From: an uncultured Alistipes sp.
GTDB lineage: Bacteria; Bacteroidota; Bacteroidia; Bacteroidales; Rikenellaceae
Direction of reading: 5' to 3'
Assembly: GCA_949285535.1 (NCBI GenBank)
Contig: CASDZP010000003.1
Location: forward strand, 1 to 64,000
Length of the DNA: 64,000 nucleotides
In this document: one piece after another, positions 590 through 42,775 of the stretch
How the letters are laid out: each line of letters starts with the position of its first letter
How positions within the stretch are numbered: position 1 is the stretch's first letter
Notes under the pieces: model-generated
What the model saw: the letters and a program-made list of their open reading frames with translations, nothing else
The model's database searches: none
What the model was told of the DNA's origin: nothing
Position numbers and translations under genes: made by a program

Positions 590-634
590 ATATTTTTTGT
601 GAAAAAGGGATGTGTGTGAGGCTATAAACGAAAA

Positions 635-699
635 GATGTAGACTTCTTAAATGATAATGAGCCGAATGGATATGACATGGTCAAAATGGGCTACGCCCC
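635..699 (-). repeat. Decayed partial copy of the 125-bp tail-associated element
   Basis: The reverse complement of this stretch aligns without gaps to the distal half of the elements at 34528-34653 and 42538-42662. Shared blocks include GACCATGTCAT, GGCTCATT and GAAGTC. The proximal half with the GTTACTTTGTC hairpin is missing. In its own orientation an inverted repeat (747-889) lies upstream, as in the two intact loci. Confidence 0.75.
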
Positions 700-746: not shown

Positions 747-889
747 GTCATTTATCTTTTCTGTTTTGTTTTTTAATTCGGATAATGGCTATTGTTTTTT
801 ATTTCTCCTTATATATTAAGGTAAAATAAAATCAATCGTCATTATCTGAATTGAAAAACATATTGAACAAAACAGAAATGATAAATGAC
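747..889. repeat. Long imperfect inverted repeat
   Basis: The left arm (747-787) starts GTCATTTATC and ends GATAATG. The right arm (840-889) is its reverse complement with a 9-base insertion and three mismatches. The 52-base loop is AT-rich. It could be a small non-autonomous mobile element or a remnant of the structures seen at 34367 and 42343. No coding frame crosses it. Confidence 0.75.
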
Positions 890-32794: not shown

Positions 32795-34405
32795 ATGAAA
32801 AACATATTCAAAATAGCAGCTGTCGGTTGTGTTTCGCTCATCTCGTTGGCAGGTTGTCAGACCAACTTCGATGACATAAACACAAACCCCAACTCACCCG
32901 AGACTGTCCCCACACCCTATCTTCTCACAACTGTGGAGCGTAATATCGCCTACTATTTTTATGATCAGTGGAGCGGGGTACGTATCTCAGGCGTAACTGC
33001 GCAGCACTGGGCGCAGCGTAACTATACCGATGAGGACCGTTATCAGTATCGTACCAACACCACGAACACATGTTTCGAGGATATGTACGTGATGTTGAAC
33101 GACGCGCAGTCAATCATCGACATGTGTCGTGAGAACCCCGACGGTATGTCGGCATACGGTGACCCCGATCTTCAGATAGCTTCTGCAATGCTTATCAAGG
33201 CGTTCGGACTTCAGATGCTCTCAGAGATGTTCGGCGGCATACCTTATTCTGAGGCGTTAAAATATAACAGCTTCGAAGCTCCCGGTATTCTCACTCCCAA
33301 GTATGACACCCAGCAGGAGGTGTTCGCAAATCTCGAAAGCGACATACGCGAAGCGCAGTCTCTTCTCAAAGGTGTTCTCGACAGAGGCGGTAAAGGCTGG
33401 ACAAGCCCCATCAGCGGCAGCGGTACTGCCGACAAGCTCCTTGGCGGCGACCCTGAAAACTGGTATCGTTTCGCCAACACCATGTTGCTCCGTCTGGCTG
33501 TGCGTCAGTCTAACGTGAAAGCCGATTGGAAGACGATGGCAATGGAGGCTATAAACGCGGGTATCATCGAGGACAACAGCGGCAACGCTTCTTTCAAATT
33601 CATAGGTGGTGGTGCCCCCGGTGACGCTCCTATTTATAACATGTTCATAACGAGCGGACGTAACGACTTCACCATGTCATATGCTTTCGCTTCGTTCCTC
33701 AAAGGTGAAACCAACCCCAAACAGGGTTATACTTCTCCTCTTGCCGGCTTCCGTGACCCCCGTTTCAATGCGATGATTGGCGAAGCTAACCTTGCGGCAG
33801 GTAATGTGGACGGTCTTCCCTATGGTTTGGTTACTAACGACAACCAGATTTATGTGGAGAACAATCTGGCTACGCTTATAAACTTCTACCGTCAGTCAGG
33901 CGCTCCTGTGGTGTCACAGGCAACATTCTGGACTACATTCATCGACTGCGCCAACGCCCAGCTTCTCAAAGCTGAAGTTACAGGCGATGTGGCTGACTTC
34001 AGAAAAGGTGTTGAGGCATCTATGGCACAGTGGGGTGTTTCTGACGCCGCTTATGTTCAGAAAGTGTGTGACATGTTCACCGCTGCCGATGATGAGGGCA
34101 AACGTGAGCTTTGCGTAACACAGAAATACATTCACAACTTTGCGCACAACTCAATGGAGGCATGGAGCGAATATCGTCGTACAGGCTATCCCTCGTTCCT
34201 TATTAAACCGGGTGATGTTACTGCCGTGATTAACGGTCAGAATTACATATTCACTCCCATCGACGCCTCTATCACCGAGATTACCGCCCGTATGACCTTT
34301 GCCACAAGCGAGTACACCAGAAACCGCAAAAACCTTCAGGTGGCTATCGACAACCTCGGCGGTCCCGACGCATACTCTACAAAACTTTTCTGGGCTAAAA
34401 AATAA
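32795..34405 (+). CDS. susD: SusD/RagB-family surface lipoprotein
   Basis: 536-residue lipoprotein (lipobox LAGC, Cys21) that acts as the substrate-binding lid on the SusC barrel. The opening FDDINTNPNSPETVP is the mark of the SusD-like_2 branch. The helical TPR-type core includes IASAMLIKAFGLQMLSEMFG and ENWYRFANTMLLRLAVRQS. The last 13 codons (DAYSTKLFWAKK and stop) are duplicated in inverted orientation beyond the terminator hairpin, an unusual arrangement listed separately. Confidence 0.93.
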   Translation: MKNIFKIAAVGCVSLISLAGCQTNFDDINTNPNSPETVPTPYLLTTVERNIAYYFYDQWSGVRISGVTAQHWAQRNYTDEDRYQYRTNTTNTCFEDMYVMLNDAQSIIDMCRENPDGMSAYGDPDLQIASAMLIKAFGLQMLSEMFGGIPYSEALKYNSFEAPGILTPKYDTQQEVFANLESDIREAQSLLKGVLDRGGKGWTSPISGSGTADKLLGGDPENWYRFANTMLLRLAVRQSNVKADWKTMAMEAINAGIIEDNSGNASFKFIGGGAPGDAPIYNMFITSGRNDFTMSYAFASFLKGETNPKQGYTSPLAGFRDPRFNAMIGEANLAAGNVDGLPYGLVTNDNQIYVENNLATLINFYRQSGAPVVSQATFWTTFIDCANAQLLKAEVTGDVADFRKGVEASMAQWGVSDAAYVQKVCDMFTAADDEGKRELCVTQKYIHNFAHNSMEAWSEYRRTGYPSFLIKPGDVTAVINGQNYIFTPIDASITEITARMTFATSEYTRNRKNLQVAIDNLGGPDAYSTKLFWAKK

Positions 34406-34514
34406 GCTCTTCGGATATAACAATAAAAGGACAGAAGTAGTTTGCTTCTGTCCTTTTTTGTTATATCCGAAGAGCTTGTTTCTTAGCCCAGAAAAGTTTT
34501 GTAGAGTATGCGTC
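34367..34514. repeat. Inverted duplication of the susD 3' end around its terminator
   Basis: The left arm (34367-34437) is the last 39 coding bases of susD plus the 3' flank. The right arm (34445-34514) is its reverse complement with two substitutions and a one-base gap; the loop is TAGTTTG. The outermost 32 bases are identical. All differences lie after the AAA-AAA-stop codons or in the terminator stem (AAAAGGACAGAAG / CTTCTGTCC). An ordinary terminator needs only the inner ~13 pairs, so the outer copy of coding sequence calls for explanation. Confidence 0.95.
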
Positions 34515-34616
34515 GTCGCTCCCGCGGGGCTCTCCGAGGGGTCTGCCGACGGCGTTACTTTGTCCCTCGACAAAGTAACCAAAACGAGGGGGCACAGCCC
34601 CTTCTGACCATGTCAT
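34461..34616 (-). CDS. Candidate 51-codon ORF: element peptide fused to a SusD C-terminal tail copy
   Basis: Reading the minus strand from an ATG in the repeat element gives MTWSEGAVPP, then RFGYFVEGQSNAVGRPLGEP, RGSD, the copied SusD tail DAYSTKLFWAKK, then QALRI and stop. The shared 20-residue block is also encoded at 42468-42620, fused there to a different tail. It may be untranslated; no promoter was identified. It is listed because the frame is open across the junction. Confidence 0.25.
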   Translation of the reverse strand: MTWSEGAVPPRFGYFVEGQSNAVGRPLGEPRGSDDAYSTKLFWAKKQALRI

Positions 34617-34653
34617 GTTCAGTCGGCTCATTGCCTTTTACGAAGTCGGCATC
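34528..34653 (+). repeat. 125-bp repeat element, copy 1
   Basis: Nearly identical to 42538-42662 (seven differences including one extra G). It begins GGCTCTCCGAGGGGTCTGCC. It contains an 11-bp perfect hairpin GTTACTTTGTC-CCTC-GACAAAGTAAC and a GGGGC-ACA-GCCCC hairpin, and ends GAAGTCGGCATC. It starts 13 bases after the inverted susD tail. The gene-free stretch 34654-34741 holds nothing else recognisable. Confidence 0.95.
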
Positions 34654-39800: not shown

Positions 39801-42399
39801 CAATCTGTTGCAGATAAAGAGCGACAAGACGTTTTATGTATGCGGCGACTCGATAGCTGTCAGCTTCCCGTCGTCTGTCGGGGCGAGAGCGATAATCTCG
39901 ATAGAGAACGGTAGCGGAGTGCTGTCGGTTTATGACCATAAGTGTACCTCTGACTATACCGAGATAAAGATAAAGGCTACCGAGCAGATGCAGCCGACCG
40001 TTTATGTGGGTGTCTCTCTGATTCAGCCTTACGGCGTCAGAAACGACCGACCCATAAGGATGTATGGAGTTGTTCCCGTTGAGGTGACCGACCCAGCGAG
40101 CAGACTTGAACCCGTGATAAAATCGGCTGACAAGATAAGACCCGAAAGTGACTTTACGGTGACTGTCGCCGAGAAGAAAGGCAGGGCTATGGGTTACACG
40201 ATAGCTATTGTGGATGAGGGACTTCTCGACCTGACCAGATTCGCCACTCCCGACCCGTTCGCGGCTTTCAATGCCCGTGAGGCTCTCGGTGTGCGCACTT
40301 GGGATAACTATAATCACATAATCGGCGCGTACGGAGGCCGTATAGGTCGTATATTGAGTATCGGCGGTGACGACGCTCTGTTGGCGGGTAGCGGTTCCGA
40401 AATAAACAGATTCGCGCCTGTGGTAATCTTCGAGGGTCCGTTTGAACTGAAAGCGGGTGAGACGAAACGCCATACGTTTAAGATGCCTAACTATAACGGA
40501 CGAGTGAAAGTTATGGTGGTGGCGAGTGACGGTAAGGCGTTCGGTAATGCGGACAAGAGTGTCCTTGTGCGTAAGCCCGTCATGTTGCTTGGAACAATGC
40601 CGCGTGTGATTGGAGTGGGTGACCGTATGGCTGTACCCGCTACGGTGTTCGTGACGGAGAAGGGTTTCGGAACGGTGAATCTGAAGATTGAATGTTCCGA
40701 TAATCTTGAGGTTGTCGGTTCTAACAGCAGTACCGTTACATTCTCAGGTACGGGAGAAAAGGTTGTGCCTTTCACCGTGAAAGCCAGAAATACGGAAGGA
40801 GAGGGACGTGTCAGGATTACTGCCGTTTCCGGCGCAGAAAAGGCCGTTTATGAGGCTACAATAAACATAAGAGCTGTAAAAACAGAGCAGACGGCTGTCT
40901 CATCGCTGATGATAGAGGCGGGTAAGAGTGCCGAACTCAACGTGAACGTTCCGGGTGAGAGCGGCAAGGGAACGTTGACACTTGAACTTTCGAGTGTCGA
41001 GCCGCTGGATTTGTCGGGCAGAATGCGCTACCTGATAGGTTATCCGCACGGTTGTATCGAACAGACCGTTTCAAAGGCTTTCCCGCAGATATATCTGCCG
41101 AAAGTGACGGAAATGTCGTCTAAACAGGCACAAGAGTGTCAGTATAATGTTGAGGCGGCAATCGGAAGGTTGAGGTCTTACTCTCTGCGTGACGGTTCGT
41201 TCAGCTATTGGCCCGGAGGTCTCTATGGAGACGAATGGGGTACGGCTTATGCTCTCCACTTCCTGACCGAGGCTAAAAAAGCGGGGTATGATGTTCCAGA
41301 CTTCCTGTTCAATAATGCTCTCAAAAATGTGGCGAGAGTATCTTCTGACTGGACGACGACCAAGAATACAACTCGCAGTTCTCTGCGTACGCAGGCATAC
41401 AGACTCTATCTGCTCGCGCTGAATAACAAAGCGGACAAGGGTGCCATGAACCGACTGAGAGAGTGCGGCATGATGACTCCTTCAGTACAGAATCTTTTGG
41501 CGGCGGCGTATGTGGCGATAGGTCGTAAAGATGTGGCGTCACAATTGATGGAACGTACGGCTGACATCTCGGAAAACTATTATGACGACACGACATACGG
41601 CAGTCCGTTGCGAGACCGTGCAATCGCGCTCATTGCGGCGACAGCGGTAGGAAACATTCAGAACGGCATGGTGTTGTCGAAAGAAATATCCGAAGAGCTG
41701 TCCTCTTCACGTGTTCTAAGTACGCAGGAGGTGGCTTATGCGCTCATGGCGTTGTCCGGTTATCAGCTTGGCGCTGGTAAAGATAGTGCCGGAATAGAGG
41801 CGTCGTACTCTTGTCAGAGTGTAAAAGGCAATGTATCGACGACTAAATATTCGTGGTATTCGGTTTTGAGCGACAAGGCTCCGTCGAAGAGTGTGGTGTC
41901 TGTTGTAAATAAAGGTAAGTCTCCGTTATATGCACGCCTTGTCGGAACAGGTGTCTTATATAATGAAAAGGTTGGCGCTTCGTCGAACGGCTTGCGTCTC
42001 AATGTGGTTTATAAGGATGCGGACGGTAATGAGATAGATGTTACCCGTCTCAACTCAGGTGTTGACTTCTATTGTCATGCCATAATCGAGAATGTATCGG
42101 GACGTTCGGTGCGCAATATCGCTCTTACGCAGATATTCCCCGCAGGATGGGAGATTTTGAATCAGCGTTACGTGGAAGGCGGTGATGAGTCGTCAGACGG
42201 TGTCTCTTATCGCGATATTCGTGACGACAGAGTTTCAAGTTATATCGACAATCTTCCCGACAGGCGTAGTGTAACAGTCGTTACGCGCCTTAGTGCCGCA
42301 TACGCCGGTTGTTATTATCTGCCTACAGCTACCTGCGAGGCGATGTATGACAATACTCTGCGAGCCAATACCAAGAGCGGAGAGATAGAGGTGTTATAA
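36892..42399 (+). CDS. Alpha-2-macroglobulin family lipoprotein
   Basis: 1835-residue lipoprotein (LNGC, Cys24), probably in the periplasm, that should trap attacking proteases. After N-terminal Ig-like domains comes the macroglobulin core: a MG2-type segment SLADGMKGFIYGERGVWRPGD near residue 615, EGPFELKAGETKRHTFKMPN, and a thioester domain with the intact GCIEQ motif (Cys1388-Gln1391), the reactive bond that binds proteases covalently. The alpha-alpha barrel around the thioester and a C-terminal receptor-like domain follow. In E. coli the homologue YfhM is paired with pbpC; no such gene is adjacent. An in-frame start at 36793 would precede the promoter and is rejected. The last 57 coding bases reappear inverted downstream. 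Confidence 0.92.
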   Translation: MERLRNRFSVIVFSLVVLLGLNGCDGVGSGAAVLPFNPNVAAFTSGTISRFADVKLFFENAIPESKRDVKFINDVMGIKPHVDGSWSIEGDRCVVFKPRESFDRSTKYTVSAKLDKIFDDCKGEKPFRFGVETMPLSFDADVSSLDCAEDADVYDVTVSIKTPDKEDASLVESLITSSEDVETQWSHDPNGTDHTLVLKNVKSDSKARNVALNVASNGEGAPSGELMNVEIPAENDFSVYDISYVEGKSGAVEITFTKQLDKSLDYEGLAAIMDGDAVMEVNGNKIRLFPDDNSVDKVTVRLDAAIKSVGGERLGENLTFEVDVRPLKPSVSFVDDGVIVPQSEKTLIPFTAAYLRGVQVRVIKIYGDNMGQFLQSGDLDSESEIMRVGRLMAIKTVMLGEPDDPELKKRKVYALDLTEMIKPETGAVYRVILCFDRDLSVYDRCTENREYRTAEQIEADDKALFLKESSRFDANGSYYYTYRDWSRYRYSESEDPCSDSYYMDYGAGVGKNVFVTDIALTAKADYDNRLHVMARRITDTNPINGLEVTAFDYQRRNVGEGVTDDKGNVVISCSRKPFYLVAEEGKMRAYVRVDEASSLSLSSFDVSGQSLADGMKGFIYGERGVWRPGDTLHVGFMLNDREKKIPQGMPVTAELYMPQGQLFAKETASNDKFGMTAFDFPLGVDVPTGSWNVKVNVGGAVFEKRMRVETVKPNRLKIKLASYGNTISADSLITISSEWMHGAKADGLGYRVECLLGMFDKPFKGYEAYSFSDVTKKVSQGRYKVAEGTLDAQGVARFRFGVNIVASDAPGMMKAAFTSRVYEKSGDFSTAVDVMTYSPFDGYVGLKTPGDGNLETGKQHPFSVVALSPDGQPRNGAAVKVKVSRLEGYWWWYSDDDYFSRYKSAEYRKPIETKDVTVGADGKAEFSLGYPSGQWGYYLIEVKDVHSGHVASRVVYFGESWRASGEGEYANLLQIKSDKTFYVCGDSIAVSFPSSVGARAIISIENGSGVLSVYDHKCTSDYTEIKIKATEQMQPTVYVGVSLIQPYGVRNDRPIRMYGVVPVEVTDPASRLEPVIKSADKIRPESDFTVTVAEKKGRAMGYTIAIVDEGLLDLTRFATPDPFAAFNAREALGVRTWDNYNHIIGAYGGRIGRILSIGGDDALLAGSGSEINRFAPVVIFEGPFELKAGETKRHTFKMPNYNGRVKVMVVASDGKAFGNADKSVLVRKPVMLLGTMPRVIGVGDRMAVPATVFVTEKGFGTVNLKIECSDNLEVVGSNSSTVTFSGTGEKVVPFTVKARNTEGEGRVRITAVSGAEKAVYEATINIRAVKTEQTAVSSLMIEAGKSAELNVNVPGESGKGTLTLELSSVEPLDLSGRMRYLIGYPHGCIEQTVSKAFPQIYLPKVTEMSSKQAQECQYNVEAAIGRLRSYSLRDGSFSYWPGGLYGDEWGTAYALHFLTEAKKAGYDVPDFLFNNALKNVARVSSDWTTTKNTTRSSLRTQAYRLYLLALNNKADKGAMNRLRECGMMTPSVQNLLAAAYVAIGRKDVASQLMERTADISENYYDDTTYGSPLRDRAIALIAATAVGNIQNGMVLSKEISEELSSSRVLSTQEVAYALMALSGYQLGAGKDSAGIEASYSCQSVKGNVSTTKYSWYSVLSDKAPSKSVVSVVNKGKSPLYARLVGTGVLYNEKVGASSNGLRLNVVYKDADGNEIDVTRLNSGVDFYCHAIIENVSGRSVRNIALTQIFPAGWEILNQRYVEGGDESSDGVSYRDIRDDRVSSYIDNLPDRRSVTVVTRLSAAYAGCYYLPTATCEAMYDNTLRANTKSGEIEVL

Positions 42400-42524
42400 A
42401 GCATTTATCACAATAAAGAGGGCTTTTGATTTTGTTATCAAAAACCCTCTTTATTGTTGTAAATGCCTTATAGTACCTCTATCTCTCCGCTCTTGGTATT
42501 GGCTCGCAGAGTATTGTCATACAT
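42343..42524. repeat. Inverted duplication of the macroglobulin gene 3' end around its terminator
   Basis: Two 88-base arms (42343-42430 and 42437-42524) with loop TTTGTT. The outer 50 bases, all coding sequence, are identical. Six differences lie in the last codons, the stop region and the terminator stem, and three of the six keep G-U pairing in RNA. The inner 20-bp stem CAATAAAGAGGG... is the terminator. The geometry is the same as at susD. Confidence 0.95.
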
Positions 42525-42620
42525 TATTGTCTCCGACGGCTCTCCGAGGGGTCTGCCGACGGCGTTACTTTGTCCCTCGACAAAGTAACCAAAACGAGGG
42601 GCACAGCCCCTTTTGACCAT
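42468..42620 (-). CDS. Candidate 50-codon ORF: element peptide fused to a macroglobulin tail copy
   Basis: On the minus strand an ATG in the repeat element opens MVKRGCAP, then RFGYFVEGQSNAVGRPLGEP, SETI, then the copied tail MYDNTLRANTKSGEIEVL and stop. The final Val-Leu codons differ from the gene only synonymously (GTA CTA for GTG TTA). Expression is not shown; no promoter was identified. Confidence 0.25.
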   Translation of the reverse strand: MVKRGCAPRFGYFVEGQSNAVGRPLGEPSETIMYDNTLRANTKSGEIEVL

Positions 42621-42662
42621 GTCATATTCAGTTGGTTCATTGTCTTTTACGAAGTCGGCATC
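42538..42662 (+). repeat. 125-bp repeat element, copy 2
   Basis: Same boundaries and orientation as 34528-34653, beginning 13 bases after the inverted macroglobulin tail. It carries the GTTACTTTGTC / GACAAAGTAAC hairpin and GGGGC-ACA-GCCCC. Bases 42663-42775 to the next promoter are AT-rich with nothing recognisable. Confidence 0.95.
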
Positions 42663-42775
42663 ATATCGTGTGTATTCTTAAAAATGATAATTGGCTGAAC
42701 CGGATTATGTTTTGTCGGGATGTCGGTCTGGAAAATTAATTTTGATGTGCGGATTTTTGATTTTTGAAACGGTAT

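Follow-up and report, generated by a model that had tools for sequence, protein, structure and literature searches.

Long Palindromes Derived From Flanking DNA Lie on One Side of a Repeat Element in an Uncultured Alistipes Genome

The DNA studied here, referred to below as the window, comprises the first 64,000 nt of contig CASDZP010000003.1 from an uncultured Alistipes sp. (assembly GCA_949285535.1). Its two longest inverted repeats lie at a macroglobulin gene, which was identified by Pfam, and at susD, each next to a copy of the same repeat element (Table 1). The macroglobulin palindrome begins in the coding tail of the gene, spans the stop codon and has a terminator as its center. Its 88-nt arms match at 82 of 88 positions around a 6-nt loop, giving a score of 137, compared with 22.5 for the best of 500 shuffles of the region. 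The 50 outermost bases of the arms (42343-42392) show no difference at all, and three of the six differences further in (42393 G.T, 42394 T.G, 42400 A.C, 42408 T.G, 42409 C.T, and 42423 C.A) are of the G-U type. These positions and counts reproduce those given in an initial annotation of the sequence, which had also attributed the same geometry to susD; the susD palindrome, paired at 59 of 62 positions, is indeed laid out in the same way, with a stop codon in the arms, a terminator at the center and the element alongside. An exact 31-mer (GTTACTTTGTCCCTCGACAAAGTAACCAAAA), for which the chance expectation is 0, is common to the two elements (at 34554 and 42564). A third occurrence in the window is decayed and lies beside an element remnant.

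Table 1. Positions of the palindromes, the repeat element and associated features within the window.
Feature	Position	Strand	Remarks
Left arm: tail of macroglobulin gene, 3′ UTR, left stem of terminator	42343-42430	+	Coding to 42396; stop codon 42397-42399
Terminator hairpin at center	42412-42455	+	Stems 42412-42430 and 42437-42455, loop 42431-42436; read from sequence
Right arm: inverted copy of gene tail	42437-42524	+	
Filler between inverted copy and unit array	42525-42528	+	
Left end of element: variable unit array, units short, GC-rich and mini-palindromic	42529-42563	+	
Core hairpin GTTACTTTGTC-CCTC-GACAAAGTAAC plus CAAAA	42564-42594	+	~130 copies in genome
Second hairpin of element, GGGG-CACAG-CCCC	42598-42610	+	
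Right part of element: conserved blocks and strongly variable columns	42611-42678	+	
susD palindrome	34366-34515	+	Left arm 34366-34427, inverted copy 34454-34515, terminator at center
Element copy adjoining susD palindrome	34528-34653	+	Core 34554-34584
Gapped, decayed palindrome beside degenerate element	747-889	-	In 5′ flank of ORF at 969
Element remnant without core	619-680	-	84% identity to right part of element

A pattern search found 130 cores of the element in the 2.05 Mb draft genome to which the window belongs (G000), and 97 distinct copies were read together with their flanks. The order of parts is a variable array of ~11-nt GC-rich units, a core hairpin (GTTACTTTGTCCCTCGACAAAGTAAC), CAAAA, a second hairpin (GGGGCACAGCCCC) and a tail of ~70 nt in which strongly variable columns stand between conserved blocks. 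Among 95 aligned copies, ~20 columns are extremely variable and 75 are almost fixed, the latter diverging by 1.35% vs. ~5.5% in the captured arms; such variable columns beside near-fixed ones suggest either constraint or a special source of variation. The gap of 13 bases that the initial annotation had placed between palindrome and repeat resolves into 4 nt of filler and the start of the unit array, which is itself part of the element. Filler at this junction is usually 0-17 nt long, and a search for a local source of it found none. The element was not found in virus contigs or plasmids. Some elements (L002, L005, L037, and L047) form convergent pairs ~450-800 nt apart that enclose AT-rich DNA, and the right flanks of many copies share repeats such as GACGGGGTACGCTTGCCAACTTGTC. 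A wider family of GTTACTTT-hairpin-AAAGTAACCAAA elements with lineage-specific hairpins occurs in other genera of the Rikenellaceae (L121-L140, in genomes G030, G069, G025, G012, G081, G103, and G107); at the loci read, none of these had a flank palindrome of comparable length.

Having two such cases in one window, the initial annotation had argued for a process rather than an accident and had proposed a genome scan for inverted repeats and their proximity to the element. A scan of 794 kb returned 42 inverted repeats with at least 30 matched bases, almost all of which adjoin a core, and the two seeming exceptions adjoin element copies that have lost half of the core hairpin. When gaps were allowed, 75 of the 81 palindromes scoring at least 50 in 1.17 Mb, or 57% of the length of this incomplete draft, lay within 350 nt of an element; the other six comprise one at a contig end, two at 356 and 443 nt from an element and three that are far from any. 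These three are a perfect 33-bp palindrome that has a loop of 6 nt and lies at least 25 kb from any element (C3:89301-89378, in L052), C7:36598-36801 and L105:15904-16005.

The most striking fact is the strict one-sidedness of this arrangement. Palindromes scoring at least 60 were present in 75 of 90 left flanks of the element, in 0 of 91 right flanks and in 1 of 1,383 control windows, with approximately 15 of the 90 copies having a plain or short hairpin only. Arm length was unrelated to GC skew (rho 0.02, skew being a crude proxy in an unordered draft), which suggests that the polarity is set by the element and not visibly by the direction of replication. A process is thus strongly supported by the 75 of 90 copies, the constant side and the recurrence in a second species described below, and the idea that palindromes invariably adjoin the element holds in essence.

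We classified the copies by simple ORF rules. Of 87 classifiable copies, that is, those with an ORF and flanks of sufficient length, 60 adjoin the 3′ end of a gene in the sense orientation; in 47 of these the stop codon lies inside the arm, whose extent through the stop is 31-131 nt (median 81). In the 27 other copies the longer ORF points the opposite way; on reading 14 of these, we found many to be true 5′ flanks of genes that run divergently. Six cases checked against Pfam gave TGS (threonyl-tRNA synthetase type), DnaG, S1, peptidase M16, Lgt, and class-III aminotransferase, and for dnaG and the M16 peptidase the start codon itself is inside the captured arm. The term "tail duplication" used earlier therefore holds for the 60 copies at gene 3′ ends but not for a substantial minority, in which the copied sequence belongs to a divergent gene, being its 5′ flank or its start codon. 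In these 5′-flank captures the center is an ordinary small palindrome and not a terminator. Palindrome centers are short-loop hairpins, with loops mostly of 2-11 nt. Since 5′ flanks and start codons are captured, a terminator is unnecessary and only a small local hairpin is needed; the common requirement is a local hairpin to the left of the element.

The two arms differ at 388 mismatched pairs across 76 loci. The mismatch rate is flat along the arm, except for the sparse outer ends, and is 0.055 in coding and 0.056 in untranslated sequence. Counts at the three codon positions were 48, 57, and 88, a pattern made up of an even background in the inverted copy and of gene changes that are mostly synonymous. 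Long hairpins could have been retained by selection, for example as devices for RNA stability or termination, and many of the palindromes do lie behind genes and extend their terminators. However, G-U mismatches numbered 130 vs. 167 of the A-C type, so RNA pairing is not maintained, and the hint of kept G-U pairing in the initial annotation does not generalize, the local three of six being close to chance. With the flat rate, the neutral codon-position pattern and the occurrence of palindromes at gene starts as well, we regard selection as highly improbable; selection for RNA pairing in particular is ruled out by the G-U and A-C counts. The inverted copies are neutral relics that decay neutrally. 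The ages of the arms show a modest dispersion (1.6), and perfect arms of 34-99 nt remain at 12 loci.

The same pattern was found in a second genome of the genus (G042), at mostly different genes. There the element is present in ~30 copies, the majority of those with sufficient flank carry a palindrome, and the stop codon lies inside the arm in 12 of the classified ones. At L182 the stop codon itself, with no terminator, is the center of the palindrome, and L176 and L184 are likewise centered at the stop. The core hairpin of G042 shows paired changes (GGTAC/GTACC, GCTAC/GTAGC, and GATAC/GTATC at L172, L174, L176, L177, L182, and L184), and its palindromy is kept, either through function or through the same template switching. 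The genus genomes used are incomplete drafts with only ~78% DNA identity to one another. In the large contigs of G042 (181 kb), G031 (200 kb), and G011 (54 kb) we found only one inverted repeat with at least 26 matched bases, and the element is nearly absent from G011. Insertion sites common to both species numbered 2 of 19, which is not an informative excess over the ~0.9 expected by a rough estimate. Amplification chimeras are often inverted, and one may ask, given that all of these genomes are drafts, whether snap-back artifacts of amplification or assembly produced the palindromes. This we hold to be barely credible, as such artifacts would have had to arise in two different genomes, beside one element only and on one side only, and the arms have diverged with an excess at the third codon position, like real evolution.

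The captured regions also bear on the nature of the template, for which DNA is the best reading because 5′ flanks and the start codons of dnaG, the M16 peptidase and others were captured. Alternatively, the terminator at the 3′ end of an mRNA may prime reverse transcription of the mRNA's own tail, with the product being joined to the element. Gene 3′ ends centered on terminators are indeed the most frequent captures, and G000 has one reverse transcriptase gene, as does G011. However, the divergent 5′ flanks and start codons with their non-terminator centers largely contradict capture from RNA, a base-specific error bias was not seen (mismatches by left-arm base: A 112, C 98, G 87, and T 91), and a reverse transcriptase was not found in G042 (82% complete), which bears the pattern, while the nearly element-free G011 has one. 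We therefore consider RNA-mediated capture very unlikely, and no reverse transcriptase is implicated in the pattern. The gene that we detected (L141, 1150-2520) encodes an IGNLTSQ motif, and its best matches, all below the cut-off, were to group II, retron, and antiviral families.

For the 25 junctions located directly within units, the inverted copy and the unit array share on average 1.95 nt of microhomology vs. 0.33 nt for random 12-mers from genes. Because alignment ends soak up chance matches, a null of 0.67 that allows chance extension on both sides is fairer, and the excess persists. Microhomology at a junction is a usual sign of template switching. We consider element-linked fold-back copying of the left flank to be the best explanation of these observations, with a probability of roughly 60%. 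A free DNA 3′ end would appear at the left boundary of the element and fold back on whichever small inverted repeat lies closest, usually an intrinsic terminator if the site is behind a gene. A DNA polymerase would then extend the folded end, so that up to ~140 nt of flank would be copied in inverted orientation, and the new end would join the GC-rich unit array through a few bases of microhomology, after which the inverted copy would decay neutrally. At the macroglobulin gene the left arm is the template of the inverted copy, and the terminator hairpin is, to judge from its sequence, the probable fold-back point. The free end, the polymerase and the order of events are what we infer from the products, and no transposase, nuclease or polymerase responsible was identified in our analyses.

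When the copying takes place is less clear-cut. Tentatively, a mobile element may join its target by fold-back priming, in which the 3′ end of the target DNA folds onto a hairpin nearby, is elongated with its own flank as template and is finally taken up by the unit array, so that the palindrome on one flank would be a signature of insertion. A doubtful alternative, to which we give somewhat less credence, is that the element only marks a fragile place: once it is inserted beside a hairpin, ordinary replication would stall at its hairpins, and intrastrand template switching of the nascent strand would make and renew the inverted copy repeatedly. The chemistry of such events would be that of quasipalindrome template switching as set out in PMC8794818, and the filler could be original spacer left over. 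Arm divergence was uncorrelated with every measure of element divergence, and the 12 loci with perfect arms have elements whose nearest relatives, among the copies read, differ by 7-14 in ~121 sites. Later switching is favored both by this lack of correlation and by the absence of any near-identical relative, and perfect arms at such elements fit poorly with copying at the time of insertion. It would be unsafe to conclude from this that the arms are younger than the elements, as most of the differences sit in the ~20 variable columns and the 75 conserved columns have diverged less than the arms. Against repeated renewal stand the strict left-sidedness in element coordinates, unrelated to GC skew, the near absence of long palindromes at the other terminators of the genome and the only mild dispersion of arm ages. 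Coupling to insertion is favored by the near-universal adjacency of hairpins, by a polarity that follows the element and by the lack of a relation to GC skew; between copying tied to the element's joining or insertion and errors of later replication, we lean slightly toward the former.

Hairpin-forming template switches are well documented, with an adjacent inverted copy, a small hairpin at the center, a return by microhomology and a perfect stem made in one step (PMC8794818; PMC7202029). The events known are scattered and usually short, with up to 59 bp mentioned in the former. Our loci are alike in that 75 of 90 have an inverted adjacent copy at a small hairpin and the return shows microhomology; however, our copies reach ~140 nt, occur at most copies of one element and are always on the same side. 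Independence of the hairpins from the element, as expected of quasipalindrome mutation, was not observed, since only 6 of 81 palindromes lay away from it. Eukaryotic fold-back inverted duplications likewise start from a 3′ end that turns back on itself and serves as primer on its own flank (PMC3907307), but those are very large and sporadic whereas the copies here are short, bacterial and bound to an element.

As to the element itself, it is short, high-copy, hairpin-rich and intergenic like the REP-like repeats associated with RAYT (Y1) transposases, but a Y1 transposase (Y1_Tnp, PF01797) was detected in 0 of 4 genus genomes, which are 82-88% complete, and we know of no description of REPs copying their flanks in inverted form. 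Bacterial MITEs are likewise short, high-copy and, as this element appears to be, non-autonomous; however, its single copies are asymmetric, with differing left and right ends and no obvious terminal inverted repeats, a large inverted repeat is seen only at a few convergent pairs, and the palindrome is derived from the flank and differs at each locus. Group IIC introns insert beside intrinsic terminators, a preference that the element shares, but it is only ~130 nt long, holds no intron-encoded protein and occupies many non-terminator sites, and no Rfam family, and hence no catalytic intron RNA, reached the gathering score in the window between 34300 and 42900. The mismatch counts show no adenine-directed change of the kind made by diversity-generating retroelements, and capture by a reverse transcriptase of the DGR, retron or group II type is at odds with the lack of a detectable enzyme in G042. 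A survey of 118,019 genomes found perfect inverted repeats to be enriched just past bacterial stop codons and ascribed them to terminators (PMC13155455). Our literature search found nothing specific on this element or on inverted gene-tail copies beside repeats, and no report of an element that systematically carries the inverted copy of one flank. Thus, while the chemistry resembles known template switching, the link to an element, the one-sidedness and the scale appear to be new, and there is a real chance that the joining chemistry is new as well.

In bacteria, long palindromes are as a rule scarce and unstable. This genome holds dozens of them, each made from another flank and all on one side of one repeat. 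If the copying is coupled to insertion, the element would have a means of joining DNA that has not been described before; if it occurs later, the loci would form a natural series of fold-back template switches that is unusually large and regular. In either case, the inverted copies are neutral fossils of the events, which opens mechanism, tract length and age to strain comparison, and they indicate that no selection is needed for terminator hairpins to be lengthened, or for gene ends to be copied in antisense, in large numbers.
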